DNA of 64,000 nt from Janthinobacterium sp. SUN073 (lineage in GTDB: Bacteria > Pseudomonadota > Gammaproteobacteria > Burkholderiales > Burkholderiaceae_D): NCBI RefSeq assembly GCF_030397665.1, contig NZ_JAPUBT010000001.1, positions 555,926 through 619,925 on the forward strand. The letters are read 5' to 3'. Of the stretch, positions 2,866-64,000 are shown piece after piece. Under the pieces are notes generated by a model, which did no database searches, had not been told where the DNA came from, and saw nothing but the letters and a program-made list of their open reading frames with translations. The position numbers were made by a program, and so were the translations under genes. Positions within the stretch are counted from its first letter, which is position 1. The number at the start of each line of letters is the position of its first letter.

Positions 2866-2953
2866 CGCAACGGCAAGATGCCATCGTGTTTCGATATGAA
2901 CATCAACATTGTTTCAATTTTCACATATATTACACGCACTGTCCCACTCCCAC

Positions 2954-3571
2954 TCACTTGTGTCCGACAGCGCCCAGCAAGGCCAGGCTGGCAGCCATCT
3001 GCGGCAAATCGAGCACCCGGTCGGCGCCGGCCCGCTTGAGCGCGGCGGCCGGCATGATGCCACAACTGGCCCGTTGCGGGTCTTGCACCCAGGCACTGCC
3101 GCCCAGTTGCCGCACGCGCGCCAGTCCCGCCGCGCCGTCGGCCGAAGCGCCCGTCAGAATGATGGCCAGCATGGCGCGCCGGTAGGCGTAGGCTGCCGTT
3201 TCCAGCAGGACATCGATGGACGGGCGCGAAAAATACACGGGCTCTTCCTGCGACAGGGAAAAACAGCCATCGGGTTCAACTTGCAGGTGGTAATCGGGCG
3301 GGGCGAAGTAGACGGTGCCGCCTTGCAGCGGTTCCTTGTCCTGCGCTTCGCGCAAGGGCAGCGCGCAGCGCGCCGCATACAGCTGCGGCAACTGGCTGGA
3401 ACGGCCCGGCGCCAAATGCAGCACCACCACCACGGTGGCGCGGCAGCTGGCGGGCAAGGCGCGCAGCACGGTACCCAGCGCTTCCACGCCGCCGGCCGAG
3501 GCGCCGATGGCGATCAGGCGCAGGCCGGCGGGCGGTGGTGCCACGTCGCTGGTCGGCAGCATGTCAGGCAC
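2954..3571 (-). CDS. CheB-type protein-glutamate methylesterase domain protein
   Basis: A 205-residue protein consisting only of the CheB catalytic domain. The expected triad is visible: S25 in GASAGG, H52 in LHLAPG and D145 in TGASADG. Classical CheB carries an N-terminal receiver domain; here it is missing, so activity is not directly gated by phosphorylation of the same chain. The GTG start at 3571 overlaps the last 8 bases of cheR; an in-frame ATG at 3562 is an alternative. Pairing with cheR and kinases rather than with cheA/cheW/receptor genes points to an alternative signalling role rather than flagellar chemotaxis. Its substrate is unknown. Confidence 0.88.
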   Translation of the reverse strand: MPDMLPTSDVAPPPAGLRLIAIGASAGGVEALGTVLRALPASCRATVVVVLHLAPGRSSQLPQLYAARCALPLREAQDKEPLQGGTVYFAPPDYHLQVEPDGCFSLSQEEPVYFSRPSIDVLLETAAYAYRRAMLAIILTGASADGAAGLARVRQLGGSAWVQDPQRASCGIMPAAALKRAGADRVLDLPQMAASLALLGAVGHK

Positions 3572-4409
3572 GCTGGAAGATGCGTACAGCCGGGCTCAGC
3601 TCGTTGAAGCTGGCAGCGTGGCGGCTGAAATGCAGGCTTTCCTTCATGCCCAGGCCCAGGAAGCCCCGGTTCACCAGCGCTTCGTGGAACAGGCCCAGGC
3701 TGCGGTCTTGCAAGTCTTTATTGAAGTAAATCATGACGTTACGGCAGGAAACCATGTGCACCTCCGAAAACACGCTATCCGTCGCCAGGCTATGGTCGGC
3801 GAAGACGAACTGACGCCGCAGGCGCCGGTCAAAGATGGCGCCCTTGTAGGCGGCCGTGTAATAGTCGGACAGCGAACGCTTGCCGCCCGCCAGCTGGTAG
3901 TTTTCGCTGAACTGGGCGATGCGCTCGACCGAATAGATGCCCGCTTCGGCGGCGGCCAGCGCCTCGACATTGATGTCGGTCGCATAAATCATGCTGCGTT
4001 CCAGCAAGCCTTCCTCTTCCAGCAAGATGGCCAGCGACCACACCTCTTCGCCGCTGCTGCAACCGGCCACCCAGATCTTGATGGAAGGATAGGTGTGCAG
4101 CATGGGCACGACTTTTTCGCGCAAGGCGCGGAAATATGCGGGATCGCGGAACATCTCGCTCACCTGCACCGTAAAAAATTGCAGCATCTGCGCGAACATG
4201 GCCGGTTCGTGCAAGATGCGGTCCTGCAATTGCGACAGGCTGGCGCAGCCAAAGCGCTCCATGGCCTGGCGCATGCGCCGGCGCAGGGACGCCACGGAAT
4301 AATCGCGGAAATCGTGCTGATAGCGCAGCAGTATTCCCTCAAGTAATAACTTCAGTTCGATATCGAAAATATCATCATCTAGCAATTTGACATCCACCCT
4401 TCTATCCAT
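3564..4409 (-). CDS. CheR-type protein-glutamate O-methyltransferase
   Basis: A 281-residue SAM-dependent methyltransferase of the CheR family. The N-terminal all-helical region (~15-80) includes the basic stretch SLRRRMRQAMERFG. The catalytic domain contains the SAM motif WVAGCSSGEE near 115-125, the ATDIN motif, and the conserved CRNVMIYF segment. CheR methylates glutamates on signalling proteins, and the neighbouring CheB reverses this. It is the first gene of the minus-strand operon. The 129 bases upstream, shared with the end of the aldo/keto reductase gene, should hold the promoter; none is obvious by eye. Confidence 0.92.
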   Translation of the reverse strand: MDRRVDVKLLDDDIFDIELKLLLEGILLRYQHDFRDYSVASLRRRMRQAMERFGCASLSQLQDRILHEPAMFAQMLQFFTVQVSEMFRDPAYFRALREKVVPMLHTYPSIKIWVAGCSSGEEVWSLAILLEEEGLLERSMIYATDINVEALAAAEAGIYSVERIAQFSENYQLAGGKRSLSDYYTAAYKGAIFDRRLRRQFVFADHSLATDSVFSEVHMVSCRNVMIYFNKDLQDRSLGLFHEALVNRGFLGLGMKESLHFSRHAASFNELSPAVRIFQRA

Positions 4410-4493
4410 GCGGCATTCCCCGGCCCCGCACCACTTCGCGGGTGCATGGGGCCAGCCGAAATGCTAGCAGATCGCCGGGGATTATCGCGCAGG

Positions 4494-4528
4494 AAAAACG
4501 TCAGTTAGGTACGCTGGCGTACACTAAG
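4494..4528 (-). terminator. Probable terminator after the aldo/keto reductase gene
   Basis: On the minus strand, downstream of the stop at 4539, an inverted repeat (TTAG-GTACGC ... GCGTAC-CTAA, 4505-4527) is followed after five bases by a five-T run. It could stop read-through into cheR. The gap between stem and T run makes it a moderate candidate. Confidence 0.45.
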
Positions 4529-4538
4529 CCCAGTTTTT

Positions 4539-5531
4539 TCAGGCATCCACGCCCTTCATGCCCTCCTCCGTATAACGCGCGCCCGCCGCCATGCCCAGGG
4601 GAAAGGCCGCGTTCATCGCCGCCAGTTCCACCCCGTCCAGCTGCACGCCCAGCGCGCCGAGGTTGTCGTGCAAATACGCGATGCGCTTGGTGCCGGGAAT
4701 GGGGATGATGTCGTCGCCTTGCGCCAGCAGCCAGGCCAGCGCCAGCTGGGCCGGCGTGCAGCCCTTCGCGCGCGCGATGTCCCTGACCTGCGCCACGATG
4801 GCCTGGTTGCGCGCCAGGTTGTCGGCGGCGAAACGGGGATTGAACTGGCGAAAATCCCCCGCGTCGAGACTGGCCGCATCGGCAATGGCGCCCGTCAGGA
4901 AACCGCGCCCCAGCGGGCTGTAGGCAAAGAAACTGGCACCCACGTCGCGGCAGGCGGCCAGCACGCCCTGCTCCGGCTCGCGCGTCCACAGCGAATATTC
5001 GCTCTGCACGGCCGCCACGGGGCAGAGCGCCGCCGCGCGCCGCAAGGTGGCGGCGCTCACTTCGCACAGTCCCACGGCGCGGATCTTGCCCTCCTGCATC
5101 AGCTGCGCCAGCGACCCCATCGAGTCTTCCAGCGGGGTATCGAGGTTCAGGCGGTGAAGGTAGAACAGGTCGATGGCGTCCACGCCCAGGCGCGTTAGCG
5201 ACGCTACACACGCCTGGCGGATATAGGCGGGGGAGTTGTCGACGCGGCGCGCATAACTGCCCGCCTCGCGCGCCAGGCCGCACTTGGTGGCGACCAGGGC
5301 CTGGCCGCGATGGCTGGCCAGGAAACGGCCCAGCAATTGCTCGTTGTGGCCGAAGCCGTAGGCGTCGGCCGTGTCGAACAGGGTCACGCCCGCCGCCAGG
5401 GCCGCTTCCAGCGTGGCCATCGATTGCGCCTCGTCCGTGGCACCATAAAATTCCGACATGCCCATGCAGCCCAGGCCCAGTGCCGAGCTGCTCAAGCCGC
5501 TATGGCCGATGCGTCGTTGTTGCAGTTGCAT
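4539..5531 (-). CDS. Aldo/keto reductase
   Basis: NAD(P)H-dependent oxidoreductase of the aldo/keto reductase superfamily, 330 residues, single TIM barrel. Tetrad elements are visible: DTADAYG (Asp and Tyr), ATKCG (Lys) and YLHRLN (His). The C-terminal IPIPGTKR motif binds the cofactor phosphate and suggests NADPH. The ATG at 5531 is preferred over an in-frame one 15 bases upstream because GGGAG lies seven bases before it. Transcribed divergently from a LysR gene across 83 bases, so it is a plausible regulatory target. Substrate unknown. Confidence 0.9.
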   Translation of the reverse strand: MQLQQRRIGHSGLSSSALGLGCMGMSEFYGATDEAQSMATLEAALAAGVTLFDTADAYGFGHNEQLLGRFLASHRGQALVATKCGLAREAGSYARRVDNSPAYIRQACVASLTRLGVDAIDLFYLHRLNLDTPLEDSMGSLAQLMQEGKIRAVGLCEVSAATLRRAAALCPVAAVQSEYSLWTREPEQGVLAACRDVGASFFAYSPLGRGFLTGAIADAASLDAGDFRQFNPRFAADNLARNQAIVAQVRDIARAKGCTPAQLALAWLLAQGDDIIPIPGTKRIAYLHDNLGALGVQLDGVELAAMNAAFPLGMAAGARYTEEGMKGVDA

Positions 5532-61219: not shown

Positions 61220-61744
61220 ATGACACTCTACCAATTGGGCGCCGATGCGCCGCAGATTGACGCTTCCGCTTTTGTTGCCGACACGGCCAATGTGATCGGC
61301 AAGGTGACGCTGGAAGCGAACACGTCCGTATGGTTCGGCGCCACGCTTCGCGGCGACAATGAACGCATCACCGTGGGCGCCAACAGCAATGTGCAGGAAG
61401 GCGCCGTACTGCACACGGACCCGGGCTACCCGCTGGACATCGGCCAGAACGTGACCATTGGCCACCAGGCGATGTTGCATGGATGCACGATTGGCGATGG
61501 CGCCCTGATCGGCATCCAGGCCGTGATCCTGAACGGCGCGAAGATCGGCAAAGGGTGCCTGGTCGGCGCGGGCGCCCTGGTCACGGAAGGCAAGGAATTT
61601 CCCGACAATATGCTGATCATCGGCTCGCCGGCAAAAGCCGTGCGGCCCCTGACGGCAGACGATATCACCAGGCTACAAGGCAACGCCGTGAACTATGTGC
61701 AACGCGGCCAGCTATTTAATACGCAACTCAAGAAGATTGGATAA
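61220..61744 (+). CDS. Gamma-type carbonic anhydrase family protein
   Basis: 174 residues forming a left-handed beta-helix with hexapeptide repeats. The zinc-ligand histidines H65, H82 and H87 and the structural R44 are present. Relatives (YrdA, PaaY) act as carbonic anhydrases, thioesterases or uncharacterised enzymes. It is upstream of hslO by four bases in the same direction, so they are one operon. Confidence 0.92.
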   Translation: MTLYQLGADAPQIDASAFVADTANVIGKVTLEANTSVWFGATLRGDNERITVGANSNVQEGAVLHTDPGYPLDIGQNVTIGHQAMLHGCTIGDGALIGIQAVILNGAKIGKGCLVGAGALVTEGKEFPDNMLIIGSPAKAVRPLTADDITRLQGNAVNYVQRGQLFNTQLKKIG

Positions 61745-61748
61745 GAGA

Positions 61749-62729
61749 ATGACGACTGAAACCACAGGCGCGGTCAGCGCAGCCGTTAGCGGCCAGGATA
61801 CCCTGCAAAAATTTATTTTCGACAACGCCGCCGTGCGCGGCCAGTTCATCGACGTTTCCCACACCTGGCAAGAAGTGGTATCGCGCCACGCCTATCCGAC
61901 GGCCGTGAAAAAAGTACTGGGCGAAATGGTGGCCGCCGCCGCCCTGCTGTCGGCCAACCTGAAATTCAACGGCTCCATCATCATGCAAATCCACGGTGAC
62001 GGTCCCGTGCGCCTGATGGTCGTCGAGTGCGATTCCGACCTGCGCCTGCGCGCCACGGCCAAGCTGGACCCGGACGCCACCATTCCCGACGTGGCCACCG
62101 TACCGCAATTGCTCAACGCCACGGGCAAGGGCCGCTTCATCATCACCCTGGACCCGGCCGACAAGGTGCCGGGCCAGCAACCGTACCAGGGCATCGTGCC
62201 GCTGGACGGCGACGACATGGCGACCGTGATCGAAAACTACATGTTGCGCTCGGAACAGCTCGATACGCGTCTGTGGCTGGCCACGGACGACAGCGTCTCG
62301 CGCGGCCTGCTGCTGCAAAAGCTGCCCCACCATGGCGGCAAGGCCGAAGCGACGCCTGTCTCGGAAGAAGTTGCGCTGGACACATGGCACCGCGCCGTGA
62401 TGCTGGCGTCGACCCTGAAAGAGGAAGAAATCCTCGCCACCGACATCGAGACCCTGATGCAGCGCTTGTTCTGGGAAGAAACCATCCGCGTCTTCGAGCC
62501 GCTGCACCCAAGCTTCCATTGCAGCTGCACGCGTGAAAAAGTCGGCAATATGCTCAAGATGCTGGGCGAGGAAGAAGTCAACGGCACCCTCGACGAAGTG
62601 GGGCAAGTGGGCGTGAATTGCGATTTCTGCGGCCAGCACTATACCTTCGACAAGGTCGATTGCGCGCAGCTGTTCATCACGGATGCGCCCGCCGAAGTAC
62701 TGATTCCGCCAGCCGCCAGCATTAACTAA
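61749..62729 (+). CDS. hslO: Redox-regulated chaperone Hsp33
   Basis: 326 residues. The substrate-binding N-terminal domain is followed by the redox switch: C258 and C260 (FHCSCTREK) and C291 and C294 (CDFCGQHY), which bind zinc when reduced. Oxidation unfolds the region and activates holdase function. The ATG at 61749 is chosen over an upstream frame that lies inside the preceding gene. Confidence 0.97.
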   Translation: MTTETTGAVSAAVSGQDTLQKFIFDNAAVRGQFIDVSHTWQEVVSRHAYPTAVKKVLGEMVAAAALLSANLKFNGSIIMQIHGDGPVRLMVVECDSDLRLRATAKLDPDATIPDVATVPQLLNATGKGRFIITLDPADKVPGQQPYQGIVPLDGDDMATVIENYMLRSEQLDTRLWLATDDSVSRGLLLQKLPHHGGKAEATPVSEEVALDTWHRAVMLASTLKEEEILATDIETLMQRLFWEETIRVFEPLHPSFHCSCTREKVGNMLKMLGEEEVNGTLDEVGQVGVNCDFCGQHYTFDKVDCAQLFITDAPAEVLIPPAASIN

Positions 62730-62743
62730 TTGTAATATTCCCC

Positions 62744-62772
62744 GCGCCGCCCCTCAGGCGGCGCAATTGTTT
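62744..62772 (+). terminator. Probable terminator after hslO
   Basis: An 8-bp stem (GCGCCGCC / GGCGGCGC) with a CCTCA loop is followed by AATTGTTT. The T run is interrupted, so it is moderate. Confidence 0.6.
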
Positions 62773-62775
62773 CCA

Positions 62776-62815
62776 CTGTCATCGTTCCGTCATCAGTCCG
62801 TCATCAGCCCGTCAC
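62776..62815 (+). promoter_or_regulatory. Tandem PhoB-box-like repeats (four half-sites)
   Basis: CTGTCAT (62776), CCGTCAT (62787), CCGTCAT (62798) and CCGTCAC (62809) occur with exactly 4-base spacers and 11-base period. The first is identical to the E. coli PhoB half-site; the others differ at one or two positions. Two adjacent pho boxes are implied, 55 bases before the TonB-dependent receptor start. Confidence 0.75.
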
Positions 62816-62825
62816 GCGCCGCCGT

Positions 62826-62831
62826 TACGCT
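62826..62831 (+). promoter_or_regulatory. -10 element of the pho-type promoter
   Basis: TACGCT begins ten bases after the last half-site, the spacing seen in pho promoters where the box replaces the -35. It is a weak -10 that would need an activator. Confidence 0.45.
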
Positions 62832-62869
62832 GCGCAGCTTGTATTACCCACACTACTTTCCACAGGCTG

Positions 62870-64000
62870 ATGATGACCACCCACTTGACGCTGGCCCTGC
62901 GCCGCCATTCCTTCCATGTTTTGCTGGGCGCTTGCGCCGCAGGCCTCTCCCTGCCGGCCCTGGCGCAAACAGCCGTCGCCATCGCCGTGGCGTCCGCCAC
63001 CACCGAGATGGCAGCGCCCGTTGATGACAACGCACCGATGGCCACCGTGGAGATTTCCTCGCGCAAGACGCGTTCTTCGGTCGCCCTGAGCAAGAATGAA
63101 ATCCAGAAAATCCTGCCCGGCACGAATCCCCTGAAAGCCTTGCAAACCTTGCCTGGCGTCAGCTTCCAGACGGCCGATCCATGGGGCAACAACGAACAAA
63201 ACCTGTCGCTGTTCGTGCATGGCTTTTCCGGCCAGCAACTCGGCTACACCATGGATGGCGTGCCGCTCGGTGACCAGCAGTACGGCAACTACAACGGCCT
63301 GTCGCCGCAGCGCGCCGTGATCAGCGAAAACGTGCGCAGCGTCGTGCTGTCCTCGGGCGCGGGCGACCTGGCGACGGCCTCGACCAGCAACCTGGGCGGC
63401 ACCATCGAAACCTATTCCAGCGACCCGCTGGCCACGCAAGGCGCCAGCGTGCAGCAGACCGTGGGCAGCCACCGCACCTCGCGCACGTTCGCCCGCTACG
63501 ACACGGGCGCCTTCGGCGACGGCAGCAGCGCCTACTTTTCCATCCTGCATCACGAAGCGCGCGCCTGGGACTTCGATGCGCGCCAGGGCGGCGACCAGTT
63601 CAACGCCAAATACGTCAACCGCAGCGAGGCGGGCAAGCTGACCCTGTTCTTCAATTACTCGGACAAGATCGAACCGAACGAAGACAGCACCGTGCACGTG
63701 GCCGGGGAGACGAGCGCGCCGTACACGCGCCCCTTCCTGTACCCGGACTTCAAGGCGGCCCTCAATTACCTGTCGCCGACGGGCGCCACGCCAGCCGCCG
63801 ACGGCAACAATTACCGCAATTACTACAGCGATGCGCAGCGCACCGATTACCTGGCCTACGCCAAGTTCGACGCCAACTTGTCCGAAGGCATGACGTGGGC
63901 TAACCAGGTGTATTACCACAAGGATGACGGCGCGGGCGTGGTAGCCGGCCCCATCGGCGTGGCCGGCTTGCCTGGCCTGTTCAGCGTGTACTACCCGAAA
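62870..64000 (+). CDS. TonB-dependent receptor, N-terminal part (cut by window edge)
   Basis: 377 codons open to the window edge. A signal peptide ends near residue 33 (SLPALAQ). The plug domain includes PLKALQTLPGVSFQTADPWG, NLSLFVHGF, YTMDGVPLGDQQYGNYNG and NLGGTIETYSS. The start of the beta-barrel follows. The ATG at 62870 or the adjacent 62873 is used. The tandem PhoB-like boxes upstream suggest a phosphorus-related substrate, but nothing in the protein itself shows this. Confidence 0.9.
   Translation, partial: MMTTHLTLALRRHSFHVLLGACAAGLSLPALAQTAVAIAVASATTEMAAPVDDNAPMATVEISSRKTRSSVALSKNEIQKILPGTNPLKALQTLPGVSFQTADPWGNNEQNLSLFVHGFSGQQLGYTMDGVPLGDQQYGNYNGLSPQRAVISENVRSVVLSSGAGDLATASTSNLGGTIETYSSDPLATQGASVQQTVGSHRTSRTFARYDTGAFGDGSSAYFSILHHEARAWDFDARQGGDQFNAKYVNRSEAGKLTLFFNYSDKIEPNEDSTVHVAGETSAPYTRPFLYPDFKAALNYLSPTGATPAADGNNYRNYYSDAQRTDYLAYAKFDANLSEGMTWANQVYYHKDDGAGVVAGPIGVAGLPGLFSVYYPK

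Follow-up and report, generated by a model that had tools for sequence, protein, structure and literature searches.

In Janthinobacterium sp. SUN073, four PhoB-type half-sites in tandem stand before the gene of a TonB-dependent receptor, and PhoB very probably controls this receptor together with the glycerophosphodiester phosphodiesterase (GDPD) whose gene overlaps it, judging from the array, its conservation among receptor orthologs, its recurrence before the pst and phosphatase genes of the same genome and the gene overlap, all of which are features of the sequence itself. The array would form a double PhoB operator in the promoter of an operon of two genes, for the receptor and for a putatively exported enzyme, and with this operon the bacterium probably scavenges phosphorus from phosphodiesters or lipid fragments when phosphate runs out. 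That the receptor itself imports an organic phosphorus compound is a less firm reading, to which we give somewhat better than even chances. The features in and just beyond the window, by which we mean the whole analysed stretch of 64,000 nucleotides (C1:555926-619925), are as follows.

61695..62729, plus strand: upstream gene (open reading frame), not part of the receptor operon, which we take to be Hsp33/HslO-like.
62744..62764, plus strand: terminator-like hairpin with 8 GC pairs, a loop of 5 and the tail AATTGTTT (1 found, 0.4 expected in shuffles).
62776..62782, plus strand: putative PhoB half-site 1, CTGTCAT, upstream box; direct read, the 7-bp motif following an excerpt on E. coli (PMC4415409).
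62787..62793, plus strand: putative PhoB half-site 2, CCGTCAT, upstream box; direct read.
62798..62804, plus strand: putative PhoB half-site 3, CCGTCAT, promoter-proximal core box; direct read, strict core in 72 of 80 orthologs.
62809..62815, plus strand: putative PhoB half-site 4, CCGTCAC, promoter-proximal core box, in the place of a -35 element; direct read and ortholog comparison.
62816..62825, plus strand: 10-nt spacer GCGCCGCCGT between the last half-site and the -10 element, its length conserved in orthologs.
62826..62831, plus strand: -10 element TACGCT; direct read, orthologs often having TATGAT, TATCAT or TACGCT.
62870..64000, plus strand, running past the window end to a would-be 65272: TonB-dependent receptor gene, 800 aa (PF07715 Plug, PF00593 beta-barrel).
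Would-be 65272-66402, beyond the window: GDPD gene, overlapping the receptor gene by one base.

The four 7-bp units, the 11-bp periodicity and the ten bases to the -10 element described in the first-pass annotation proved exact when the coordinates were re-read from the sequence: the units start at 62776, 62787, 62798 and 62809, separated by CGTT, CAGT and CAGC, and the terminator-like hairpin sits between the upstream gene and the array. TACGCT is, as had been proposed, weak in itself, and many orthologs carry TATGAT or TATCAT at the same place. The 17-nt -35 slot of the receptor promoter holds ATCAGC, and a promoter scan of 62600-63000 found no sigma-70 promoter-like site, as expected for an activator-dependent promoter. 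In the excerpted text on E. coli, the pho box consists of 7-bp direct repeats with CTGTCAT as the most conserved motif, arranged in 11-nt units with two units per box, and the ugp promoter contains multiple pho boxes (PMC4415409); the claim that the first unit equals the E. coli half-site is borne out by this motif. The textbook pho box, as outlined in part of another paper, has A/T-rich spacers and lies near the -10 element, where it replaces the -35 element (PMC4971064). The focal site resembles E. coli PhoB promoters in its 7-bp repeats and 11-nt units, with at least two direct repeats near CTGTCAT in the 11-bp register, and in a box that replaces the -35 element about 10 nt 5' of the -10 element, whereas it differs from them in 4-bp spacers that are not A/T-rich and in the four perfect units before a TonB-dependent receptor operon. 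A/T-rich spacers are not treated here as defining a pho box in a GC-rich genome (the window has a GC content of 63.5%), because the nine sites of the same genome on which our matrix was trained likewise have mixed spacers, and because the four spacer bases are rated less conserved in the E. coli excerpt (PMC4415409).

The four-unit array is not a product of chance. A single loose box is uninformative, because two-unit matches with up to 2 mismatches occur 12 times in the window and 8.57 times in shuffles; the loose two-unit pattern was thus rejected as a test and replaced by a pattern that includes the -10 element. Within the window, the focal array is the sole mismatch-free two-unit match and also the sole run of three overlapping two-unit matches. 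Exact GTCAY in four 11-bp steps occurs once in the 6.45-Mb genome, where composition leads one to expect about 0.0001 matches on both strands, and with up to 3 mismatches the four-unit pattern finds 8 matches on both strands, two of which are registers of the focal array itself, against 2 for the reversed pattern.

Conservation was assessed before the best 80 of 425 relatives of the receptor, down to 64% protein identity; the nearest named orthologs are from Janthinobacterium. The strict core, GTMAY-N6-GTMAY-N10-TANNNT, is present with exact spacing in 72 of these 80 orthologs, a count inflated, like the other ortholog counts, by near-identical Janthinobacterium sequences, and is absent from eight (L063, L070, L074, L077, L079, L082, L083, and L084). 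No match was left in any of the 80 when N6 was replaced by a gap of 3-5 or 7-10, and when the distance to the -10 element was varied from 5 to 16, 72 orthologs matched at 10 nt, one at 15 nt and none elsewhere. Nine further sites of this genome, all taken from pattern matches and not including the focal one, served to train a matrix, so that the test is independent in genes and not in motif. The matrix gives the focal site a score of 24.1 within a training range of 20.8-28.9. At a score of at least 10 it finds a site in 79 of the 80 ortholog upstream regions, the corresponding numbers being 7 for the opposite strand, 1 for first-order random sequences (one copy per upstream region) and 0 inside the gene; at 20.8 or more the numbers are 36, 1, 0, and 0, respectively. 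In 33 of the 80 orthologs, a plain three-unit scan that ignores the -10 element did no better than the best-scoring of six alternative periods, because most of those orthologs keep two units. The mutual similarity of the three CCGTCA units and of the CAGT and CAGC spacers is what a local duplication would leave behind, and the array might in principle be a chance or mutational tandem duplication that has no regulatory role. We consider this scarcely credible, since it is strongly contradicted by the conservation tests: position, spacing and the -10 element are conserved in orthologs down to 64% protein identity, and the same site stands before the pst genes.

The first-pass annotation had staked its reading of the layout as PhoB-controlled on similar sites standing before the pho genes of this genome, and the search found the same two-unit box with its -10 element before pstS, ppk and other genes; together with the geometry kept in 72 of 80 orthologs, this supports control of the PhoB type. 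The genome pattern, GTCAY-N6-GTMAY-N9-11-TANNNT, matched 22 times, against 1 match for the reversed pattern used as control, and it is on such pattern searches and on family searches that the genome-wide statements rest. Eight of the 22 matches (seven of the 21 distinct sites, one gene having two overlapping registers) precede phosphorus genes, namely pstS, ppk, a gene of the Ppx/GppA family (twice), and genes for an alkaline phosphatase, a phytase-like protein, a PF01663 phosphodiesterase and a metallophosphoesterase. The Ppx/GppA protein falls below the NCBIfam cut-offs of both the exopolyphosphatase and the GppA models, and the Alk_phosphatase protein lies over the Pfam cut-off and below that of NCBIfam. 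Two matches precede TonB-dependent receptors (the focal one and L096), and four precede short STN-type proteins, one of which is over the Pfam STN cut-off (L098) and one below it (L099), while the two without an STN match (L100 and L104) were placed in this group from inspection by eye and from gene order. Single matches precede the genes of a GGDEF protein (L095), of a di-haem peroxidase (L087) and of a lamin-tail domain protein (L105), and five have no assigned gene (L085, L089, L097, L103, and L106); a Pfam scan of the protein downstream of L106 found no match. The pstSCAB-phoU-phoB-phoR cluster lies on contig C6 with ppk divergent from it, and boxes face both directions in the ppk-pstS interval. 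PstS and PhoR (TIGR02966) score over their NCBIfam cut-offs, and the protein encoded between phoU and phoR is named PhoB because of its score (295.1 against a curated cut-off of 296.2) and its place. Across 25 genomes of the same genus, the own genome included, the pattern matched 7-26 times per genome against 0-3 for the reversed control, while in 16 genomes of other families of the same order it matched 0-10 times against 0-6, so that it is a good detector within the genus but performs poorly beyond the family.

OmpR-family paralogs share a direct-repeat geometry, and 7-bp repeats with 4-bp spacers are reportedly described in a paper on PhoP. Another regulator of this family that uses 11-bp direct-repeat operators might thus bind the array in place of PhoB, and 139 places in the genome match the PhoB model in a family search. 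Against such a regulator stand the GTCAY sequence and the same geometry and -10 distance at sites that precede pstS, ppk, the Ppx/GppA-family gene and phosphatase genes, and we regard its involvement as very unlikely. Three perfect GTCAY units in the 11-bp register also occur before a gene that appears, by eye, to be PuuD-like (L109, C1:1533261); this three-unit array has no -10 element at 10 nt and was left out of the regulon.

If PhoB is taken as the regulator, we fairly infer that the four units would seat two PhoB dimers. The length of the array varies among orthologs: one to three further upstream units (three to five strict GTCAY units in all) are found in 32 of the 80, and two strict units only in the other 48, a count that includes loci, L083 among them, that lack a convincing site. 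Relative to the 72 strict cores, GTCAY recurs at -11 in 31 and at -22 in 28 cases, and at none of the other distances from 5 to 30 upstream. In a quick tree built from 81 receptor sequences, with SH-aLRT support only, the two array-length classes require 8 changes, compared with about 26 when the labels are shuffled, and seven of the eight are forced by starred branches, so that the number of units has changed at least 7 times. These 11-bp-step counts and tree changes indicate that the array has grown or shrunk at its upstream end, with the proximal box and the -10 element kept in place. As two strict units are all that 48 of the 80 orthologs show, the second, upstream box may be accessory, and the same number could be taken to mean that half-sites 3 and 4, the proximal box, do all the work and that the other two arose by lineage-specific duplication and have little effect. 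This is unlikely in our view, considering that at least 7 changes in unit number have kept an exact 11-bp register (-11 in 31 and -22 in 28 of 72 cores) and that 18 of the 20 loci with Janthinobacterium in their title keep four units. Across a bacterial family, the repeated gain or loss of units at this orthologous promoter also provides a natural series in which the number of half-sites can be related to PhoB output. A second, near-perfect four-unit array (L113/L129, C29:311376-311413, 2 mismatches) lies elsewhere in the genome before a gene for an OlsB-like acyltransferase, whose best NCBIfam match is an ornithine acyltransferase, below cut-off; such a target would fit the replacement of phospholipids by ornithine lipids during phosphate starvation.

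The receptor has a PF07715 Plug and a PF00593 beta-barrel domain, both over cut-off, and a family search assigned it no NCBIfam name. The GDPD gene starts on the last base of the receptor stop codon (2870..5272 and 5272..6402 of L003), an arrangement that suggests a single transcript. Its product matches PF03009 with 144.7 bits (cut-off 23.6) and aligns with the solved glycerophosphodiesterase 1ydy, presumably E. coli GlpQ, at an E value of 3.6e-32, including the HRGA, PEHT, E-x-DL and H motifs. It falls below the equivalog cut-off of NCBIfam PRK11143, which we take to be the GlpQ model (145.8 against 254), and is therefore called GlpQ-like, not GlpQ. The N-terminus carries SRRNFVQ before a hydrophobic stretch and appears Tat-like by eye, and the enzyme may be exported. 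A GDPD homolog adjoins the receptor in 75 of the 80 orthologs, with estimated gaps of -30 to 247 bases and many genes overlapping or nearly abutting; it is not adjacent in five (L044, L057, L062, L063, and L084), though in L057 and L063 the contig ends within 106 bases of the match. In family searches of the genome neither GlpT (best 32.5 bits, cut-off 632.55) nor UgpB (best 27.2 bits, cut-off 411) was found over the family cut-off, which fits a release of phosphate in the periplasm.

The first-pass annotation had supposed organic phosphorus as the cargo, and such uptake is made more likely by the overlapping GDPD gene past the window end; by its predicted function, the operon partner points to glycerophosphodiesters as the substrate. 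PhoB might instead control a receptor for something other than organic phosphorus, such as a metal chelate or a cofactor required under phosphate starvation, with the phosphodiesterase acting alone; metal ions are required by GlpQ enzymes and by some phosphatases. In a structure prediction of the receptor (mean pLDDT 63), in which the barrel is fair, with its strands present, and the plug poor, the nearest folds by Foldseek are FhuA, PqqU, PiuA, and FecA, i.e., iron-siderophore receptors and the PQQ receptor PqqU, at query-normalised TM scores of about 0.53-0.55; PDB sequences searched with the receptor as query gave nothing relevant (1 match, E 0.027). This likeness would suit a different cargo, but fold searches cannot tell substrates apart, because TonB-dependent receptors share one common fold, and the retention of a GDPD beside the receptor in most orthologs, often overlapping or nearly abutting, speaks against a phosphodiesterase that acts alone. 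We therefore see the import of another cargo under PhoB control as a possibility to be taken seriously, though a doubtful one.

Under the preferred reading, in which the receptor takes up organic phosphorus, scarce phosphate would lead PhoR to phosphorylate PhoB, a dimer of which would occupy half-sites 3 and 4 in the -35 place, ten bases 5' of the weak -10 element, and bring in RNA polymerase with sigma-70. Half-sites 1 and 2 would hold a second dimer, adding cooperative binding and a higher output, and the operon would thus be expressed in dependence on phosphate. Across the outer membrane, the receptor would then carry a phosphodiester, for instance one of the phospholipid headgroups (glycerophosphocholine and glycerophosphoethanolamine are examples), which its partner enzyme would cut in the periplasm into glycerol-3-phosphate and an alcohol, and PhoB-controlled phosphatases would free phosphate for import by PstSCAB, the route from cleavage to import being a conjectured one.

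PhoB-controlled TonB-dependent receptors have been reported before, and we regard the receptor-GDPD operon as a new and well-supported example of a known mode of control. In Caulobacter crescentus, as far as the excerpt goes, PhoB controls various TonB-dependent receptors, which are thought to import alternative phosphate donors, as well as GDPDs (PMC11208175); control of both kinds of protein is the common trait, whereas a receptor and a GDPD in one operon are not stated in that excerpt, and the comparison drawn here is one of regulation and function. In Flavobacterium, the PusCD TonB-dependent outer-membrane transporters have their genes next to those of periplasmic phosphodiesterases and are induced when phosphate is depleted, according to the sections consulted (PMC8115612). 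The transporter encoded beside a phosphodiesterase is shared with the operon described here, but PusCD are SusCD-type pairs with a lipoprotein lid from Bacteroidetes, while the sole operon partner of the present receptor, from the Oxalobacteraceae, is the GDPD. In Xanthomonas translucens, a TonB-dependent receptor (0436) and a GDPD (0441) appear close together in a table, and phosphate control is not mentioned in the accompanying excerpt (PMC5217246). A receptor-GDPD operon is not described in the excerpts of four papers (PMC11208175, PMC8115612, PMC5217246, and PMC9414882), and no description of one under phosphate control was found in the openly accessible literature searched, mostly titles and the beginnings of abstracts, nor any of the operon in the literature on Janthinobacterium and PhoB within the same scope. 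Many TonB-dependent receptors have no known substrate, and in the Oxalobacteraceae the conserved PhoB-type switch and the phosphodiesterase partner narrow the candidates to a short list and point to a clean condition for testing these. As a more tentative proposal, the receptor may be a dedicated importer of glycerophosphodiesters, or of larger fragments, that feeds its partner enzyme as a proteobacterial counterpart of the Pus system, with the length of the array serving as an evolutionary dial for promoter strength; we think this combination possible, although the odds are rather against it.

Several further pho-type sites were noticed in the genome. Divergent boxes lie between the gene of the GGDEF protein and that of the second TonB-dependent receptor (L095/L096, C12:331492-331733), which suggests phosphate control of a c-di-GMP enzyme. 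An unexpected member of the regulon is the di-haem cytochrome c peroxidase gene (CCP_MauG), which has a box before it (L087, C1:951826). The box at C1:41977 (L085) is followed at 11 nt by a perfect TATAAT, and similar sites occur in at least 8 genomes of the same genus among the matches listed; a small RNA or a short protein is possibly encoded downstream. Four clusters (L121:2300-10996, L122:6-8596, L123:6-9017, and L124:6-8731) each have a pho-type box and begin with a short STN-type protein, which in the last three is followed by an ECF sigma factor and a FecR-type anti-sigma factor. All four contain a reading frame of 2010-2204 aa, which in at least 3 runs to the edge of the fetched stretch, and a TPS secretion domain is present in the large frame of L122, the only one scanned. 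In Pseudomonas aeruginosa, pho boxes precede the surface-signalling and secretion genes vreAIR and pdtA, with PhoB binding seen by EMSA, according to the available part of the paper (PMC4971064). By analogy, these four clusters, and not the receptor-GDPD operon, seem to resemble vreAIR-pdtA in several copies.
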